Origin: Ignavibacteria bacterium
Lineage (GTDB): Bacteria > Bacteroidota > Ignavibacteria > Ignavibacteriales > Ignavibacteriaceae
Length of the DNA stretch: 34,048 nucleotides
Assembly: GCA_030684555.1 (NCBI GenBank)
Contig: JAUXVN010000093.1
Span: 1 to 34,048 of the forward strand
Direction: 5' to 3'
Made by a program: the position numbers and the translations under genes. The stretch's first letter is position 1. Each line of letters begins with the position of its first letter. Under the pieces are notes generated by a model. The model had not been told where the DNA came from, ran no database searches, and saw only the letters and a program-made list of their open reading frames with translations. Of the stretch, positions 3,770-10,715 are shown piece after piece.

Positions 3770-4138
3770 ATGAATAAAACAATCTATAAAAAAATAGCGG
3801 CAAGCGTTGCTGTTGTTTTCAGTCTTCTCACTATTGTAGAAGGTACTCAAGTGCTGTTGGGAATTACTCAACCGGAGTATGTTGTGCTTACTCCTTTACT
3901 CATTTACAATGTGCTCATGGGATTCTTTGGTCTTTTTGCCGGCATAGTGCTATGGATAAACTACGCATGGTCGTTAAGACTTACAACAATGGTTGTTGCA
4001 GCGCATCTGATCGTATTGCTTATTGTTGGAGTAATCTACTTTTCCGGCGGCGCTGTTGCCTCGCACAGTGTAAATGCTATGGTCATCCGGTCAGTGATTT
4101 GGATAGCAATTACACTGGTCGCCTGGAAAACCCGATAA
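3770..4138 (+). CDS. Small four-helix membrane protein, function unknown
   Basis: Hydrophobic protein of 122 aa with four predicted membrane segments: about residues 9-27, 38-62, 68-90 and 98-118, with few charged residues between. It ends VAWKTR. I do not recognise a named family. ATG 3770 is chosen over ATG 3755 because GAAAGG at 3756-3761 sits as its ribosome site. Its neighbours are the methyltransferase remnant before it and a small secreted protein 53 bases after it. No sequence feature suggests a catalytic role. Confidence 0.75.
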   Translation: MNKTIYKKIAASVAVVFSLLTIVEGTQVLLGITQPEYVVLTPLLIYNVLMGFFGLFAGIVLWINYAWSLRLTTMVVAAHLIVLLIVGVIYFSGGAVASHSVNAMVIRSVIWIAITLVAWKTR

Positions 4139-4191
4139 ACCTGTTGCCGAGAAATAAAACGAATATCAATCAATACATTTAAGGATATGCA

Positions 4192-4593
4192 ATGAAAGTA
4201 AAAATTTTAGTCATCATGCTTGGTTTAATTTTCGTTAGTAAAATAAACGCTCAGGATCAAGTATCGCTTTTAGAAATGGATAAAGTAAAAGAATATTTAA
4301 CGCTCAACGCGGATCAATATAAAACAATCAATGCAAAGGTTGTGCAAATAAAAGAGATTCTTGAAGAGGATAAGGAAACAATAGCGGCTTTAAAAGCACG
4401 ATTCAAGAGCGGTGATGAACCGGGATTCTTTGAAAAAATTAAAGTCAAAAGAGCAAGGGATAATAGAGTTGACAAAATAAACGATCTTTTAGATGATATT
4501 GAAAAACAATTAAATAGTGGACAGAAAAACAAATTCAAGAATATCGCAAAACCCGGACTGAAAGCGTTAAACAAAAAGGAATTAGCCGAATAA
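4192..4593 (+). CDS. Secreted Spy/CpxP-like small helical protein
   Basis: Exported protein of 133 aa with a signal peptide (KVKILVIMLGLIFVSKINA, predicted cleavage before QDQ). The mature part is almost wholly helical and highly charged. A phrase like the LTxxQ motif occurs twice (YLTLNADQYKTIN near residue 36 and LNSGQKNKF near residue 107), as in periplasmic Spy/CpxP and metal-sensor-like proteins, which bind misfolded or unfolded proteins or modulate stress signalling. Family membership is inferred from this pattern and could be wrong. AAGGATATGC directly before the ATG is a good ribosome site. The next gene downstream is an ECF sigma factor, a common setting for such proteins, but 357 bases of repeat sequence lie between them. 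Confidence 0.65.
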   Translation: MKVKILVIMLGLIFVSKINAQDQVSLLEMDKVKEYLTLNADQYKTINAKVVQIKEILEEDKETIAALKARFKSGDEPGFFEKIKVKRARDNRVDKINDLLDDIEKQLNSGQKNKFKNIAKPGLKALNKKELAE

Positions 4594-4752
4594 ATTATAA
4601 TCTGACCTTACGCAGAAGATATAAAAAAAAGACTACTTGTCATTCTGTTCGCCATGGCGAATTGTTTCAGAATCTGTTTTCCCATAATATTTAGATGCTG
4701 ACCCGCCTGAGGCGGGCAAGCATGACATCTTCGTAAGGTGAGTTATAATTTT
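4592..4752. repeat. Intergenic nested inverted-repeat element
   Basis: This makes up most of the 357-base gap 4594-4950. The outer arms are imperfect inverted copies: 4592-4620 (containing ACCTTACG) and 4727-4752 (containing CGTAAGGT), both reaching into TTATAAT. Inside are a perfect 14-base palindrome TTCGCCATGGCGAA (4648-4661), a GC-rich hairpin CCCGCC-tga-GGCGGG (4702-4716), and a TGTCATTCTG ... GCATGACA pair (about 4638-4647 and 4719-4726). The type is familiar from Bacteroidota/Ignavibacteria intergenic regions. The rest of the gap (4753-4950) is AT-rich with no gene; a convincing promoter for the sigma gene was not found. Confidence 0.7.
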
Positions 4753-4950
4753 ATTTATCTAAAAATACACTCCAATAATGCGCAATTACTTTTGTCGTGT
4801 TTAAATTAAACACAACTTATATTTCGTTCTATTCAATAGAAAATAATTTCCATAGAAGCACCGGTTTTTGTTGAGCTATGTGTCTAATCTTGTATAAAAA
4901 GGATTTTCCTATTATGAATTCATTGCAAAAGAATAGCGAGTCTTGAGTTA

Positions 4951-5517
4951 ATGGAAGAAAAGCAAATAATTGAACATCTCAAAAACGGTGATGAGTTTAT
5001 CTATAAATATGTATATGATCAATATTCACGTATGGTTTATAGTGTTTGCTTTCGTATGACCGGTAATAAAGAAGAAGCTGAAGATGTTACTCAAGATGTT
5101 TTTATTAAGCTTTTTAATTCGATTAATTATTTTCACGAAGATTCCAAACTATCAACCTGGATTTACCAGATAACCGTGAACACTTCTCTAAACAGATTAA
5201 GAAGAAAAAAAGTAATCAACTTCTTATCTCTAAATTTTTGGGAAGATGAAAAAGGAGAGAAAGAAATGGCTGTTGATAATATTACACCGGAGACTAATTT
5301 GGAGAAATCGGAAATACAGCAAATAGTTCAAGAAGCAATAAATTCCCTTCCGGCGAAGCAGAAAACCGCAATAATTTTATCCCGTTATGAAGAGTTATCC
5401 TATAAAGAAATATCAAAAGTAATGGAACTCGGTGTTTCCGCGGTGGAATCGCTGATCTTCCGCGCAAAAGAGAATTTAGCGAAAAAGCTTATTCACCTTA
5501 AAGAAAATTATTATTGA
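4951..5517 (+). CDS. ECF-type RNA polymerase sigma factor
   Basis: Sigma-70 family factor of the extracytoplasmic-function class, 188 aa, the usual length. Region 2 spans about residues 18-86 (YSRMVYSVCFRMTGNKEEAEDVTQDVF is its core; then LSTWIYQITVNTSLNRLRRKK). Region 4 spans about residues 128-180 (LPAKQKTAIILSRYEELSYKEIS, then the recognition helix GVSAVESLIFRAKENL). It would direct polymerase to a small regulon in response to an envelope or stress signal. ECF genes usually have an anti-sigma gene next to them; here the next gene, 99 bases on, is a membrane hybrid kinase instead. The upstream Spy-like protein could be part of the same response, which is inference. Confidence 0.93.
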   Translation: MEEKQIIEHLKNGDEFIYKYVYDQYSRMVYSVCFRMTGNKEEAEDVTQDVFIKLFNSINYFHEDSKLSTWIYQITVNTSLNRLRRKKVINFLSLNFWEDEKGEKEMAVDNITPETNLEKSEIQQIVQEAINSLPAKQKTAIILSRYEELSYKEISKVMELGVSAVESLIFRAKENLAKKLIHLKENYY

Positions 5518-5616
5518 CCGCAAGTTTTAATCTTATTCTGTTTCCAATTATATTAGAAAAAGATAATAATCCTATTATTGCTCTTTCGTTAATTTAAAAT
5601 TTGGAGACATCCTAAC

Positions 5617-7326
5617 ATGAAAACTACCATTGGAATAAAAATCGGCTTTGCCTTTTTTGTTCTGTTATTACTATTTGGAGTTATAGGGACTAATATATAT
5701 TACAGTGTTAATGATGGGATGATCACTCTTGAACAAATTAAGGAAGAAGCCCGGAAGCAAATTAAAGTAGGAAATCTTAGATTCAAAGTTACTCAAGTAT
5801 TGATGGCAGGCAATGATTACGTTATAACGAATAAAGAATTTTACAAACAAGAATATCAAAAACTGAATGCTTTGTTAGATAAAGATTATCTTGATTTTAT
5901 TCAATCCGATTTAACTGATAAAGAAAAACAACTTGCATACGAGATTAAGATAGACATTGATTCTATCCGAATATACTCAGAAAGAATTTTTTCTATAACA
6001 AATCCGCGTCAATCGAGCTATGCTTGGGAATTAATGGAAATAATGGATTATAGTTTTGGAAATGCTGTTAATGCTAAAACAACCCTGATATTTGATGGAG
6101 TTTCTGAAAGAATAGAAGAAAATAGTACAAATGCGGAAATGGCTAAACAAAAAATTATTACGTTTGTTCAGCGCACGATATTGATAAGTCTAATTTTCAG
6201 TTTAATAATAATATACCTCAGCATAGTTAAAATTGCCCGTCCAATTAAGAAAATTACAGAAGCCTCTAAATTTATAGCAAAAGGAGATTATACTAAGAGA
6301 CTTGAAATTAAAACACATGATGAAATTGCATCTCTTGCAGATTCATTTAACCTTATGTCTGAATCAATACAGCAGGCTCAAAAAGCGCTTGAAGACAGCA
6401 AACGGTTAACTGAAACTATTGTTGCAACTGCACCGGCCGGTTTATTGGTATTTGATTCAAAGGGGAAAATTATGATCGCGAACAACTCTTTTTGTAATAA
6501 CTTCAACCTTGTTCAAAATTCTCTGCTCTATCAAAATATTGGACCAATGTTCGAAGAGTTAAAGTTAACCGAAGAATGTCGAAGCCATATTCTTACACGC
6601 GAACCTATAACTGATGTTGAATGCAGCTATTCAAATCCCATAAAAGGTTTAAGAATTATGAACTTAACGCTCTACGCGATAAAGCTCAATAACGGGGAAA
6701 GTCTTCTTATCATTGAGGATATTACCGAACGGAAACAGAACGAACAAGAACTAATCAAAGCAAAAGAAAAAGCGGAATCTTCTAACAAACTAAAGGATAC
6801 TTTTATTGCTAACATATCACACGAAATAAGAACTCCTCTTAACGGGATATTGGGCTTAGCAAGCATAATCAGTGAAACATATTCGCAAAACATCCTTGAA
6901 GACGATAAACAGTTATTTGATGGAATAAAGGATTCAAGCAATCGAATAATTAGAACCGTTGATATGATATTGAATTATTCGCGGCTCCAAGCTGGTGAAT
7001 TTCCTATAAGTCCGAAAGCAATAGATATCGCATCAATTTGTAAAAAGTTGGTTAGAGAATTTAAAGTAGCGGCAGATGTAAAAACCCTTGACCTTTTATT
7101 CGAAAACAAATGCAAAAACTCTACTGTTTTTGCAGATGATTATTCTTTAACTCAAACGGTTTCCAATTTAATAGATAATGCAATTAAGTACACGAAGAAG
7201 GGATTTGTAAAATTAGTTCTTTATAAAGAAGGGACAGATGAATTAATGCTCGATGTGCAAGACAGCGGAATTGGAATTGCAGAGGATTATCTGAATAAGG
7301 TATTTACCCCATATATGCAGGAATAA
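5617..7326 (+). CDS. Hybrid sensor histidine kinase, N-terminal part (split by in-frame TAA)
   Basis: Membrane sensor kinase, 569 aa to the interrupting stop. Order: TM1 (about residues 8-29), extracytoplasmic helical sensor region (30-185), TM2 (about 188-207), HAMP (207-260), PAS (about 265-375), coiled coil, HisKA with NISHEIRTPLNG and phospho-acceptor His402, then HATPase with N box NLIDNAIKY, D box DVQDSGIGI and F box FTPYMQ. It stops at TAA 7324-7326, between the F and G2 boxes of the ATP-binding domain. The next codon resumes the same frame and the same domain, so this is one gene with one nonsense codon. Without the rest it lacks the G2 box and should not bind ATP normally. AATTTGGAGACAT before the ATG provides a ribosome site. 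Confidence 0.85.
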   Translation: MKTTIGIKIGFAFFVLLLLFGVIGTNIYYSVNDGMITLEQIKEEARKQIKVGNLRFKVTQVLMAGNDYVITNKEFYKQEYQKLNALLDKDYLDFIQSDLTDKEKQLAYEIKIDIDSIRIYSERIFSITNPRQSSYAWELMEIMDYSFGNAVNAKTTLIFDGVSERIEENSTNAEMAKQKIITFVQRTILISLIFSLIIIYLSIVKIARPIKKITEASKFIAKGDYTKRLEIKTHDEIASLADSFNLMSESIQQAQKALEDSKRLTETIVATAPAGLLVFDSKGKIMIANNSFCNNFNLVQNSLLYQNIGPMFEELKLTEECRSHILTREPITDVECSYSNPIKGLRIMNLTLYAIKLNNGESLLIIEDITERKQNEQELIKAKEKAESSNKLKDTFIANISHEIRTPLNGILGLASIISETYSQNILEDDKQLFDGIKDSSNRIIRTVDMILNYSRLQAGEFPISPKAIDIASICKKLVREFKVAADVKTLDLLFENKCKNSTVFADDYSLTQTVSNLIDNAIKYTKKGFVKLVLYKEGTDELMLDVQDSGIGIAEDYLNKVFTPYMQE

Positions 7327-7899
7327 ATGGGATATACCAGAGCATATGAAGGAGTTGGACTAGGTCTTGCTATAGTTAAGCAGTTTTTGAAATTGAATAA
7401 TGCAAATATTTCCGTGGTTAGCAAAAAAGGAGTAGGAACAACCTTTACCATTAATTTCGGCAAAGAGATTCAACCCAAAACAGAGACAATTATTACGGAA
7501 AAAGTTAGTCGCGATGTTGAAACATTGGCAGTAGAAAAAAAACAGGTATTTCTTTTGGTCGAAGATGATTTCGTTAATCAAGTGACAATCAAAAGGTTTT
7601 TGAGAAGTGAATATAAGATCTTAACAACAGATTCTTCTGAAGAAGCTGTTGATATTCTTCAGAAAAACAACGTTGATATAATATTGATGGATGTATCAAT
7701 TAATGGGGCAAAGAACGGATTAGAATTAACAAAAGACTTAAAAGCTTCAAAAGAATTTTCGCAAATACCGATAATAATAATAACAGCCCATGCATTTGAA
7801 AATGACAGAAAAAACGCATTCCAAGCCGGATGTGATGAATACTTATCAAAACCATTTACAAAAGAGTTATTACTTGATACTATTGCAAAGTTTGTGTAG
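7327..7899 (+). CDS. Hybrid sensor histidine kinase, C-terminal part (G2 box plus receiver)
   Basis: Same frame as the preceding piece, starting right after its TAA (TAAATG). Residues 1-45 complete the HATPase fold (YEGVGLGLAIVKQFLKL is the G2 box; then GTTFTINF). About residues 75-190 form a response-regulator receiver with acidic pocket EDD, phospho-acceptor Asp122 (IILMDVS), the conserved Thr in IIITAH and Lys in LSKPF. The restored protein would be 760 residues with the stop replaced by one residue; related kinases commonly read PY-QEE-GYTR here, so TAA is probably a mutated GAA. The ATG is a normal internal Met that could allow reinitiation, which would make a receiver with half an ATPase domain. 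It may be a pseudogene, a sequencing error or a readthrough case. Confidence 0.8.
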   Translation: MGYTRAYEGVGLGLAIVKQFLKLNNANISVVSKKGVGTTFTINFGKEIQPKTETIITEKVSRDVETLAVEKKQVFLLVEDDFVNQVTIKRFLRSEYKILTTDSSEEAVDILQKNNVDIILMDVSINGAKNGLELTKDLKASKEFSQIPIIIITAHAFENDRKNAFQAGCDEYLSKPFTKELLLDTIAKFV

Positions 7900-8527
7900 A
7901 AGATAATATACTCACTTTTTGTGCGGAGATAGAAAATAATCCATTATATGCCTTCCCTACAGGTCTTATCATTATTGAACTGTTCATCTTGTTATAAATA
8001 TATTGTACCCAACGGAAGATCGAGCAAATTCAATACGTAAAAACATAGCACGGCAAGCCGCAAGTTCAAAGTGGAAAGTATAAAGTTAAAAACATAAAAA
8101 ATATCACCGGAGGCGGACATGCTTGACATAAAAAATCCGTTAGCTAACGGACTAACGGATACATGGCAATACTATAGGTCGCTCCTACGGAGCTCAATTT
8201 CATTGGTTGTATCATTTCTATAAACAGTTCGCCCCGATGGGGCTTGGCTTTATTAATTATCATTTTTTCTACAAACATTTCATACTTTAGAAAATGAATA
8301 ATGTTTTGTATAACGGCTGTATTCTCATATTTTATTAGCTCCGTAGGAGCGGTCTGTTCATTCAATCCATTCAAACAAATATTTTTCATTAGAATCGGTC
8401 TCATATTTTGTTAGGAATTCTATAGTATTGATATGTATCCGTTAGCTAACGGACTACAATATCTGCGTAAGGTGACTTACTAAATTAAATTTACCGTTAA
8501 ATCTTTCATTTATAGATTCATAAGAAC
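7900..8527. other. 628-base intergenic stretch, mostly repeat sequence
   Basis: 7900-8135 is AT-rich with no open frame worth calling and no clear terminator after the kinase. 8107-8127 (ggaggcggacatgcttgac) loosely echoes the end of the 4592-4752 element. 8136-8453 is an inverted-repeat element listed separately. 8461-8479 carries ATCTGCGTAAGGTGACTTA, a further copy of the terminal sequence seen at 4601-4615 (inverted) and 4728-4746. Confidence 0.6.
8136..8453. repeat. Long inverted-repeat element bounded by TCCGTTAGCTAACGGA palindromes
   Basis: The 16-base perfect palindrome TCCGTTAGCTAACGGA occurs at 8136-8151 and again at 8438-8453. Next to each, facing inward, is an inverted copy of ggatacat-ncaatactata (8157-8177 and complement of 8420-8440), so the arms extend to about 40 bases. 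Within lie three smaller hairpins: GCTCC-tac-GGAGC (8181-8193), GCCCC-gat-GGGGC (8231-8243) and GCTCC-gta-GGAGC (8338-8350). The 'gctccgtaggagc' and 'gccccgatggggc' pieces belong to a class of dispersed repeats well known in this bacterial group. No transposase is present; it is a non-coding or passively moved element. Confidence 0.75.
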
Positions 8528-8584
8528 TTATCTTAAAATAATTGGCAAATCGGTTGAGGTAGCTTCGTTAATTTTCTTACTCAT
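8528..8584 (-). pseudogene. 18-codon reading-frame stub coupled to the BRO gene stop
   Basis: The ATG at 8584-8582 overlaps the TAA of the BRO gene (sequence TAATG on the minus strand), the coupling geometry of an operon. The frame gives MSKKINEATSTDLPIILR and then stops at 8530-8528. The short peptide is soluble-looking and resembles the opening of a larger protein, and the sequence beyond is repeat. I read it as the beheaded start of a lost fifth operon gene. It is too short to name, and chance cannot be excluded. Confidence 0.3.
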
Positions 8585-9444
8585 TATTCTTCTTTTTCAT
8601 TTGATTTATTCAGGGCATCAGTTTGCTTTTTTTGTTCTAATTGTTTGGCATTTAATCTTGATACAACTTTTTTACCTGTTTTTTGCTCAATTTCTTTACG
8701 AGTATTTCCGGCAATTGTGCCGCCTTGTTTTGCAATTTTCCGGTTTTCGGTAAATGATTTCGGTTTCTTTTCTTTCGATATTTCGGTTGTGGCAGCTTCT
8801 GCCAACATATTAAGCACCAATTCTAAATTGGTCATATTGTCTCGCAAATTTTCTTTTTTCAGGTCTTTGTGCTTTTTGTATCCTTTGGTGGTAAAACCGC
8901 TCCAAGCCTTTGTAATATCATCGGTAAGTATAGCAAATTCTTGTCCCTTTTCAACGCCACGGTTTTCCCACTCGTTAGTAAGTTCTTTTCGAATTTCAAT
9001 GCTTTTAAGGCGTTGGTTTATCCATTCTTTTGAATATCCTTTACGTAAATAAGTTTCCATAAGTCTGTCTATACCAATTTCAGGGTCTTCTATTTCATCT
9101 ATGCGCTCGCGGGCAACTTTTGCTATCCACATTTTAAATGGTTCGGCTTTAGGCGATGGTATTGATTGTATTAAACGGAAAAGTTGTTCAGTATCTGCCA
9201 CATCGGTCATTCGCATTTTACCATCGGCAGCAAGCATTTTCAAACCGTGACAGTTCGTCACGGTTTCATTTCCTTCTTCTTTAAGCCTTTGCTTTAATTT
9301 ACGCCAATAGGCTTGCGGGTTTATGCTTTCGGAAAGAACACCCACTACATCGACAATAGAAAAATACCATTTTTCTTCTTCTTCATTCCACAAGGAACGT
9401 ATTTGTTTTTTCTCAAATAATTTAATAGATATTTCTTTATTCAT
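8584..9444 (-). CDS. BRO-N domain protein with DinD-like C-terminal region
   Basis: Protein of 286 aa. Residues about 1-105 form a BRO-N domain, the DNA-binding module of phage antirepressors (ISIKLFEKKQIRSLWNEEEEKWYFSIVDVVGVL, then YWRKLKQRLKEEG). Residues about 105-230 are helical with the KAEPFKMWIAKVARERIDEI and WINQRLKSIEIRKELTNEW stretches common in this family. Residues 170-270 resemble DinD (FAILTDDITKAWSGFTTKGYK, LRDNMTNLELVL, AGNTRKEIEQKTGKKV). ATG 9444 is chosen because CAGGAGTTGAAG precedes it; an upstream GTG/TTG extension to 9576 would overlap the HsdM frame and looks untranslated. It overlaps the HsdM fragment by 8 bases. Such genes occur in prophages and also inside type I restriction operons; the context here favours the second. 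Role unknown, probably DNA-linked regulation. Confidence 0.85.
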   Translation of the reverse strand: MNKEISIKLFEKKQIRSLWNEEEEKWYFSIVDVVGVLSESINPQAYWRKLKQRLKEEGNETVTNCHGLKMLAADGKMRMTDVADTEQLFRLIQSIPSPKAEPFKMWIAKVARERIDEIEDPEIGIDRLMETYLRKGYSKEWINQRLKSIEIRKELTNEWENRGVEKGQEFAILTDDITKAWSGFTTKGYKKHKDLKKENLRDNMTNLELVLNMLAEAATTEISKEKKPKSFTENRKIAKQGGTIAGNTRKEIEQKTGKKVVSRLNAKQLEQKKQTDALNKSNEKEE

Positions 9445-9676
9445 CTTCAACTCCTGTTTTCGTATTCTGCCATTTAAAGTCAGTCGAAAATAGTTCACGA
9501 AGCGGTTTAAATTCGTCCTCTTGTTTGATTTTTGTTTCAAAAATTCGAAGCAAAAGTAATTCAATAATATACTCAACCCGCTGTACAGGCGTACCTGATG
9601 GTCTAAGTTTATTATGCAATGTCTTTAAAGCTTTATTTGTTTTGTTATCTGCATAATGTACAGTTGAACGTCCCAT
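9437..9676 (-). pseudogene. N-terminal fragment of a type I restriction-modification methylase (HsdM-like)
   Basis: 79 codons whose sequence matches, from memory, the start of one HsdM/N-6 DNA methylase group: TNKALKTLHNKLRPSGTPVQ, then RVEYIIELLLLRIFE, then FKWQNTKTGVEDE. A whole HsdM is about 500 aa or more; the SAM motif and the NPPY catalytic motif are absent here, so this piece cannot methylate DNA. It ends in TAA at 9439-9437, just after the BRO start codon (overlap of 8 bases), and BRO's ribosome site lies inside it (aacaggag, residues TGV). It starts 5 bases after the AbiEii remnant. It could be a decayed methylase or a retained leader frame that drives BRO translation. Confidence 0.6.
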
Positions 9677-9681
9677 ATATT

Positions 9682-9870
9682 TTACTTTTTTTCTAATTCG
9701 TAAATTTTAAACCAATAGAAGAATGCTTCCGGTTTAGACTTTTTCAATCGGTTTAGTTTTGCATTCATTGAATCACCAATAACCTTTTTTACCAATATTT
9801 TATCGGCATTTCGGTTTTCTTTTGAAACCTTAGTTATCCAGTCTATTGTAATTTTCTCTTTATCTATCAT
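9682..9870 (-). pseudogene. Internally deleted AbiEii-type nucleotidyltransferase toxin
   Basis: 62 codons that look like both ends of an AbiEii toxin with the middle gone. Residues 1-31 (ITIDWITKVSKENRNADKIL then VKKVI) match the usual start of these proteins, and the last 27 residues (KLNRLKKSKPEAFFYWFKIY) look like the end. The nucleotidyltransferase core that transfers nucleotides onto the target (GGTxL and DxD motifs) is missing; whole AbiEii proteins are about 250-300 aa. The joint falls near residue 31-33 and keeps the frame. It lies 53 bases after the AbiEi-like antitoxin gene, the expected order for an AbiE pair. No toxin activity is expected. The C-terminal match is less sure than the N-terminal one. 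Confidence 0.55.
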
Positions 9871-9923
9871 ATTCTATAAATTGGTAGTAAATCAACATTG
9901 CTGCTGTAAATTAGTTTGGATGG

Positions 9924-10715
9924 CTAACGGAATGAACTTAAATATTCGCGAAAACTATCCTTTTTTCTTCTTCTGTCTGCATATCGTAACATCCGGTTTT
10001 CATTTACAGTATATTTGCCCAAAGCCTCATTGAAAATAGCTCTCATCTCAGAACCTTGTTGGGCAGCAAATATTACATCATCACAAAAAATGTCAACCAA
10101 CATTTTTTCAATTGTGGGCAAATTGATTCTGGTTATCGTTTGTAACGGAGCTTCAGAAACCAGAGATTTTACTATTAAGGTTTCTTTCTCATCAGGCCTG
10201 TATTTTTCAATTAAATCCCTCGTAGGCTCAATAAATACAGAGAATTTATTCTCCTTTAAATAAAAGAAAACTGATTGTGCAGCCTCTTTATCCACTTCAA
10301 TAAGCAGGTAGAATCTTCCCGGTTGATGAATCATAAATTCATTTAAGGAAGAAGTATTCCAAAGGCATATCCTCAAATATGGAAATTCTTTTATGAGTTT
10401 AGAATGTATTAATTTTATTTTATGTGAGATTTCCGGTGTGTAATTTCTATTCCCGCCAATTGCAAATTTTCCTCTTCCAATCCTATTTAATACACCTGAT
10501 TGAACTAAACTATATATTCTCCAGTTTATAGTAGTGGTTTTAACTTCAGGTTCACTTTGTGAATAGAATTCTACAATATCAGATGTTTCAAAGTTTTCTT
10601 TGTCTTTGAAATAATCTTTAAGCTGGTCAATATATAATTTATCTGTTGCGATGGTAAAAAAGTTAAAATACAAATATAATAAAAAACTATAATTTGGCAG
10701 CAAAATTATTAACAT
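9924..10715 (-). CDS. AbiEi-like antitoxin (DUF6577-type winged-helix protein)
   Basis: The frame closely fits the DUF6577 antitoxin-like family that pairs with AbiEii nucleotidyltransferases. A winged-helix region (FETSDIVEFYSQSEP to RIGRGKFAIGG) would bind the operon promoter. It is followed by the conserved core IKEFPYLRICLWNTSSLNEF and FMIHQPGRFYLLIEVDK, then TIEKMLVDIFCDDVIFAAQQ and a basic tail (ADRRRKKDS). The start is unclear. ATG 10715 or GTG 10727 gives an odd hydrophobic leader of about 22 residues unlike the family. A good TATATTTG -7 box (10678-10671) lies inside that leader, so the true product may start further in, near ATC 10652 or ATT 10631. The gene looks otherwise whole, although its toxin partner is collapsed. 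Confidence 0.75.
   Translation of the reverse strand: MLIILLPNYSFLLYLYFNFFTIATDKLYIDQLKDYFKDKENFETSDIVEFYSQSEPEVKTTTINWRIYSLVQSGVLNRIGRGKFAIGGNRNYTPEISHKIKLIHSKLIKEFPYLRICLWNTSSLNEFMIHQPGRFYLLIEVDKEAAQSVFFYLKENKFSVFIEPTRDLIEKYRPDEKETLIVKSLVSEAPLQTITRINLPTIEKMLVDIFCDDVIFAAQQGSEMRAIFNEALGKYTVNENRMLRYADRRRKKDSFREYLSSFR
10671..10678 (-). promoter_or_regulatory. Candidate Bacteroidota -7 box for the AbiEi operon
   Basis: On the minus strand 10678-10671 reads TATATTTG, an exact fit to TAnnTTTG. A TTTTG stretch lies about 22 bases upstream as a possible -33 element. Transcription would start near 10664, downstream of the ATG at 10715, which argues for a shorter AbiEi product. Confidence 0.4.

Follow-up and report, generated by a model that had tools for sequence, protein, structure and literature searches.

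What remains of a defence locus when only two of its genes look whole? On the minus strand (10704-8528) of a window of 34,048 nucleotides (nt), the whole stretch of DNA analysed here, from an Ignavibacteria bacterium (GCA_030684555.1, contig JAUXVN010000093.1; a draft genome in 152 contigs, here G000), five open reading frames (ORFs) follow each other in the order AbiEi, 62 codons, 79 codons, BRO and 18 codons. A first-pass annotation had described them as a worn-down defence island and had left two possibilities, decay caught in progress or retention of the two probable DNA-binding proteins for another use; a working set reduced to these parts was not familiar to it. All five frames were found where it had placed them (Table 1). 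They are separated by 53 nt (AbiEi/62-codon) and 5 nt (62/79-codon) and overlap by 8 nt (79-codon/BRO) and 1 nt (BRO/18-codon). Comparison with relatives makes it very likely that the locus is the remnant of an AbiE toxin-antitoxin pair and a type I restriction operon which decayed to stubs, with AbiEi and BRO surviving and AbiEi being started from AUC.

The 62-codon frame had been taken for a collapsed AbiEii, and the alignment bears this out. It matches the PADLOC AbiEii profile (8.6e-10), and its alignment with an intact AbiEii of 355 amino acids (aa) covers residues 1-31 and 323-355, the first 31 and the last ~31 codons being fused in frame at a common TTATT. The nucleotidyltransferase domain is absent from this stub; in the intact AbiEii of locus L040, the Pfam AbiEii match covers residues 39-238 (2.6e-18). 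Pfam matches of the 62-codon frame to NA-iREase1 (0.002) and Ntox50 (0.11) were below the cut-off.

Likewise, the 79-codon frame corresponds to the start of HsdM, as had been proposed. Over the first 64-77 residues it is 83%, 81% and 80% identical to the HsdM genes of genomes G256, G146 and G114, respectively. The G256 frame runs off its contig and the G146 frame is broken later, while G114 carries a HsdM of 771 aa with an N6_Mtase domain (1.7e-36). The likeness extends to approximately codon 75; shortly afterwards the window frame ends in a stop codon that overlaps the ATG of BRO. Thus, compared with type I restriction-modification systems (HsdM/HsdS/HsdR), the stub equals the beginning of a methylase whose whole relative contains N6_Mtase, but itself has no match in Pfam, NCBIfam or PADLOC and hence no N6_Mtase match. 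Because the catalytic domains are absent, neither the toxin nor the methylase of the window can work. Reading of the window's ORF list, in which not all proteins were profile-scanned, revealed no long hsdM, hsdS or hsdR frame.

Gene order in relatives provided the intact counterparts. Whole AbiEii and HsdM are kept, for example, in L093 (G114:C203), which reads AbiEi, AbiEii, a second toxin-antitoxin-like pair, an AbiEi fragment and HsdM; the second pair and the fragment, a duplicated AbiEi C-terminus, occupy positions 3913-5958. L040 is a mirror image of the window, with AbiEii whole and hsdM reduced to a short start, and L041 is similar and more eroded. For a broader view we used 45 of 82 distinct AbiEi with at least 44% identity; in the other 37 the start lies elsewhere or is unclear. 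AbiEi is typically followed by an AbiEii of ~355 aa. Among the 44 loci with enough downstream DNA (L119 was left out), a near full-length AbiEii follows in 37, in three of which the alignment is interrupted by a stop or frame break, and AbiEii is missing or cut in seven (window, L043, L044, L059, L060, L062 and L063). Besides the window, AbiEi therefore stands without a whole toxin in six loci from five lineages, and the L043 AbiEi is itself interrupted by a stop. Together with the stubs, which are pieces of genes whole elsewhere, these loci favour decay caught in progress.

Codon comparisons give a hint of the order of events. Relative to L040, the first 31 codons of the AbiEii stub contain 6 silent and 4 changed codons, and 30 codons near its end contain 5 silent and 6 changed ones. 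Codons 1-74 of the HsdM stub differ from L095 by 26 silent and 11 changed codons. These counts suggest that most of the stub divergence predates gene loss.

The frame after BRO is less telling. It shares 8 of 14 residues with the beginning of the final gene in the L094 (G146) restriction operon (E 0.29 in a local set), a weak match. The contig ends within that final gene, and the 93 codons available gave no Pfam match; from its position one might guess a restriction subunit. A relative in G115 is also broken after ~30 codons. In L174 (G115:C34, 9872-10153), a different gene, which encodes 258 aa in L094, comprises only ~93 codons, and its start and later part resemble the two ends of the longer gene; by this resemblance it is a further case of an internal cut in an operon of this type.

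Structure and profiles identify the first gene. AbiEi matches Pfam DUF6577 (2.7e-75) and PADLOC AbiEi (3.4e-88), and its predicted model reached a predicted local distance difference test score (pLDDT) of 89.3. The expected architecture, an N-terminal winged helix-turn-helix (wHTH) and a C-terminal AbiEi domain, is present: residues 1-66 of the model gave wHTH-type matches, and the C-terminal domain matched 6y8q (VIA Z 10.3, root mean square deviation 3.3 over 130 residues; Foldseek E 6.6e-5). Since many unrelated winged helices match the N-terminus, the structural family call was based on the 6y8q match only. The two domains relate the window protein to the type IV toxin-antitoxin system AbiE of Streptococcus agalactiae, as do the AbiEii match of the partner in the intact L040 pair and the predicted operators of the relatives, which are also inverted repeats at the promoter. 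In contrast to that system, the window lacks a toxin domain, its operators are altered, and its clade carries a second operator-like repeat between abiEi and abiEii. The earlier description of AbiEi as intact applies to nearly the whole protein, but not to its C-terminus, where a short insertion leads to an earlier stop and removes an RQ motif found in 24 of 44 other relatives.

Studied AbiEi proteins repress via inverted repeats (PMC3985639, PMC7319586). In the relatives, the sequence GGCAGCA-N9-TGCTGCC is located 5′ of AbiEi and again between AbiEi and AbiEii. Over the 45 loci the upstream copy has 0-5 mismatches in total (shuffled controls: 4-9), and only 0-1 in the ten closest relatives. 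The window does not contain an intact inverted repeat at the promoter: its upstream copy has four mismatches, all in the left arm, which is unrecognisable by the relatives' consensus, and none in the right arm. The second copy overlaps the AbiEi C-terminus and is altered by the insertion mentioned above; it has three mismatches, as has the second site of the likewise toxin-less L044. As both predicted sites are altered, AbiEi has probably lost its normal autoregulation, which weakens the idea of a self-regulator that was kept. This argument is limited: three or more upstream mismatches also occur in 21 of 45 loci, including toxin-bearing ones with three in the left arm, so that the consensus drifts with distance. 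Retention of AbiEi as regulator of other promoters was considered and rejected: the source genome has no consensus operator with 0-1 mismatches and three sites with two.

AbiEi could instead have been kept as an orphan antitoxin against AbiEii toxins of incoming elements or other loci. This is unlikely, though it accounts for a retained and constrained AbiEi: dN/dS was 0.108-0.109 against L040-L042, compared with 0.185-0.252 among those three, a constraint to be expected both if AbiEi is still in use and if the toxin was lost recently. The C-terminal domain by itself is antitoxic in a studied AbiEi (PMC3985639), and G000 has four AbiEii-family genes above the Pfam cut-off (at G000:C128, C75, C7 and C13). 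However, these four are of other types and distant from this toxin (best E 0.013 to the L040 AbiEii), and L194 and L195 carry their own small gene overlapping just upstream, judged by position only. Moreover, the C-terminus of the window AbiEi is altered. A mobile-element origin of the locus was also rejected. AbiEi had no match in viral contigs and matched four plasmid and two phage records, all below 60% identity, and the 79-codon frame was unmatched in plasmids, phages and viral contigs.

Where does AbiEi start? The ORF list, and with it the first-pass annotation, had placed the start near 10715, which is upstream of promoter-like elements at 10704-10671. Comparison places it at an ATC (10652-10650), where the conserved N-terminus of the AbiEi clade begins; start-calling limited to ATG/GTG/TTG misplaces it. 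The codon at this site is ATC in 29 of the 45 distinct AbiEi, TTC in four, ATG, ATA and GTT in two each, and ATT, TTG, GCA, AGT, ACA and ACC in one each. No ATG, GTG or TTG is present at the site or back to the upstream in-frame stop in 25 loci. ATC occupies the site in 21 of these, so that a conserved start outside ATG/GTG/TTG and lacking a usable alternative exists in 21 of 45; 14 of the 21 also have no canonical codon in the next 39 codons. The window AbiEi does not belong to the 25. It has four in-frame canonical codons upstream, with GTG, ATG and one TTG before or inside 10704-10671 and the nearest TTG within the promoter-like stretch. Elsewhere in the same AbiEi genes ATC makes up 183 of 986 isoleucine codons. 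AbiEii starts with ATG in all 39 readable loci.

Several further features coincide with this codon. In 27 sequences chosen for ATC, which fixes the ATC codon itself, mean entropy by codon phase was 1.37/1.55/1.44 before ATC and 0.70/0.43/0.98 from ATC on; conservation and codon rhythm begin at ATC and therefore support a start there. The predicted wHTH follows directly, within residues 1-66. TAnnTTTG ends 16-21 nt 5′ of the start in 23 of 27 ATC-start relatives. The corresponding window pair TTTG...TATATTTG, which we take to be a Bacteroidota-type promoter motif, is the sole match within the window and not significant alone (2.48 expected by chance). Mapped onto a tree of 59 rows, ATC requires 7 label changes, compared with 20 for shuffled labels; ATC rows include Bacteroidota, Chlorobiota, Candidatus Marinimicrobia (Fidelibacterota) and Ignavibacteriales (L049, L050 and L072, by length or match the same contigs as L002, L003 and L005). 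Sphingobacterium lumbrici (L056) and Salibacter halophilus (L073) also carry ATC copies. The Pfam DUF6577 match begins 40 residues after ATC in the window AbiEi; perhaps the starts of this family are called too late.

The comparison is not uniform, and some observations speak against an ATC start. Sixteen of the 45 do not have ATC at the site. Ten of them have a canonical codon there or no more than three codons away (L043, L115, L076, L059, L060, L065-L067, L071 and L116), L061, L069 and L119 have ATT or ATA, and L113, L117 and L118 are unexplained; TTC stands in L113 and L116-L118. L070 and L047 have an ATG one codon before the site, L003 a TTG three before, and L054 and L056 an ATG ten codons after it; L043, one of the two loci with ATG at the site, is the one with the interrupted AbiEi. 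Conservation of ATCGCA might instead have a different cause, for instance binding of DNA or RNA, and three of the four TTC relatives indeed read TTCGCA, part of the motif persisting without ATC. We consider this improbable, slightly more so than an orphan antitoxin. It does not explain the 21 loci with ATC and no canonical codon back to the in-frame stop, nor the 14 with none in the next 39 codons either, and L043 and L115 have ATG, and L076 TTG, at this very position. In addition, a start well downstream would cost wHTH helices, and the codons of the AbiEi start recur in infC of this order. Translation of AbiEi from AUC in the window clade is thus most likely, on strong comparative evidence. 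Our searches of the open-access literature gave no report of an AUC-started, IF3-sensitive AbiEi antitoxin, and the abiEi studied in S. agalactiae starts with ATG (PMC3985639), in contrast to the mostly ATC-started clade described here. According to PMC5472188, only a handful of noncanonical start codons in bacteria have been studied by experiment.

The infC gene, encoding translation initiation factor IF3, served as comparison. This gene, which is IF3-controlled, has an ATT start in E. coli and an ATC start in Streptomyces, where IF3 also represses sigR, a gene with a GTC start (PMC5472188). Of 41 genomes examined, 40 contained IF3. Thirty infC loci were fetched and 26 were readable (four without the motif were dropped; ten further infC places are outside the count). 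In 23 of 26, no ATG, GTG or TTG occurs from the upstream stop to the conserved motif. The codon at the expected start was ATC in 21, ATT in three and ATA in one, and L156 had TTG only. G021 infC reads ATC GCA ACA, the same as AbiEi. Against the parallel, infC of the source genome has ATT and not ATC. Unlike AbiEi, most infC loci have an AGG-type sequence just 5′ of the start. As AbiEi carries the ATC start of infC, it may be IF3-sensitive too and is probably synthesised weakly, with IF3 keeping the level down. That the whole AbiEi clade (Bacteroidota, Ignavibacteriota, Chlorobiota and Fidelibacterota) is AUC-started under an IF3 discrimination like that of infC, next to a toxin started from AUG, has in our view an even chance of being right. 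In Streptomyces, too, one gene of an operon-encoded pair starts with a conserved codon outside ATG/GTG/TTG (PMC5472188); in the window clade, in contrast, it is the antitoxin that has the unusual start, with ATC as the codon, and IF3 control is suggested by analogy.

The BRO gene is intact, as had been claimed. It matches Pfam Bro-N (1.1e-11) and, with 460 bits over residues 1-283 of 286, PADLOC PDC-S13, a candidate family only, whose name was found in no paper of the open-access literature searched. The predicted model (pLDDT 86.7) is closest in fold to DdrC of Deinococcus (E 2.6e-6, probability 1.0), but identity is 14-16% and the template modelling (TM) score 0.30-0.50. The ATG is preceded by an AGGAG sequence in addition to overlapping the stop of the 79-codon frame. 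Counting partial matches as well, 38 of 97 genomes have one; four unannotated phage records also match, two of them over at least 80% of the query. Of 34 BRO genes viewed with their neighbours, 32 were whole frames; the neighbours were mostly named by reading, Pfam confirmation being mentioned where it exists. BRO preceded cas4 in four cases and neighboured methyltransferase-like genes in a few; in one it lay between gatE- and gatD-like genes, and elsewhere it stood alone. By these settings BRO is a roaming single gene. In none of the relatives fetched was it found inside this particular AbiE/hsdM operon. Synonymous divergence (dS) was saturated, leaving no usable dN/dS. The four relatives directly 5′ of a cas4-like gene, out of 32 BRO genes with readable neighbours, are L105, L106, L175 and L176; Pfam confirmed Cas4 and Cas7 in L105 and Csd1 in L106, the other cas names being given by likeness. 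In L104 (G062:C46, ~7613-9026), two partial BRO N-termini lie just 5′ of a whole BRO and hsdM, forming a small tandem array. The source genome has two further whole BRO genes, at G000:C97 and G000:C119.

Might the parts nevertheless act together, as a minimal system of AbiEi, mini-AbiEii, mini-HsdM and BRO? The frames are all open and tightly packed, with overlapping stops and starts, and the fact that the stub frames stay open counts against plain decay. A working set of this kind is still very improbable. The 79-codon frame was matched in 5 of 295 genomes (the window's own, G114 with whole HsdM, G146, G256 and a fragment in G270), and in none of the others is it the same closed short gene, two of the matches being broken or at a contig edge. 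No closed in-frame AbiEii like the 62-codon frame, which was not searched alone in whole genomes, occurred in the 43 other AbiEi loci scored. AbiEii cuts elsewhere have other breakpoints, one of them out of frame, and the window operators are altered. L059 and L060 had resembled a second in-frame collapse and thereby a conserved mini-AbiEii; this candidate was dropped because their junction is out of frame and the two, sharing a 99% identical stretch, represent a single lineage. Full-length conservation of the short frames, or a lack of AbiEii/HsdM similarity, had been named in advance as evidence against decay; to the extent of these searches neither was encountered and decay is not refuted. 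That the stubs are an assembly artefact of a draft genome in 152 contigs is equally far-fetched, given that the AbiEii junction shares only ~5 bases, too short to mislead an assembler, and that similar losses are found in other assemblies.

Decay very likely took the following course. An AbiE toxin-antitoxin pair stood 5′ of a type I restriction operon. As the comparison shows, deletions reduced abiEii and hsdM to short, non-working stubs, the AbiEii cut joining both ends in frame at the 5-base common sequence, and a third gene, after BRO, was probably cut as well, a step based on the weak match. The old abiE promoter probably still gives one transcript through the open stubs, from which AbiEi would be made weakly from AUC and BRO from its own ATG. 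BRO, either an old operon member or a later arrival, would probably be a stand-alone DNA-binding, defence-associated protein transcribed from this promoter.

Table 1. Features of the AbiE/HsdM/BRO locus in the window.
Feature	Position	Strand	Basis
AbiEi antitoxin/repressor, Pfam DUF6577, 242 aa, C-terminus altered, probable start ATC 10652-10650	9924..10652	-	profile, alignment, model
AbiEii stub, 62 codons	9682..9870	-	PADLOC match, alignment to intact AbiEii
HsdM stub, 79 codons (~75 from HsdM)	9437..9676	-	identity to three HsdM genes
BRO-N protein, 286 aa, full length, PADLOC PDC-S13, DdrC-like fold	8584..9444	-	profiles, predicted structure
18-codon stub after BRO	8528..8584	-	weak match to final gene in L094 restriction operon
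Promoter-like pair TTTG...TATATTTG 5′ of AbiEi	10671..10704	-	motif scan
Predicted AbiEi operator, right arm TGCTGCC; left arm unrecognisable	10696..10702	-	consensus comparison with relatives
Second predicted AbiEi operator, altered, between abiEi and abiEii	9883..9905	-	3 mismatches to GGCAGCA-N9-TGCTGCC

Elsewhere in the window, a hybrid histidine kinase (5617-7899) is apparently split by one stop codon into a 569-aa frame and a directly following 190-aa frame, in which the ATPase domain ends and a receiver domain is found. Between this kinase and BRO, positions 8100-8460 are occupied by repeats such as GCTCCTACGGAGC / GCTCCGTAGGAGC, recognised by eye.

Taken by itself, the locus is an unexceptional though well-documented example of a defence operon that is being lost one gene at a time; among its relatives, some keep a whole pair and others have lost the toxin or the methylase. 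Of greater importance than the decaying locus is the AUC start. An antitoxin is usually expected in excess over its toxin, and an antitoxin made from a weaker start than the toxin would reverse this expectation. If the AUC start is under IF3 discrimination, antitoxin supply would be tied to the stock and fidelity of the initiation factors, and a change in initiation, for example during phage takeover, would shift the toxin-antitoxin balance. IF3 may thus be linked to a phage-defence switch.

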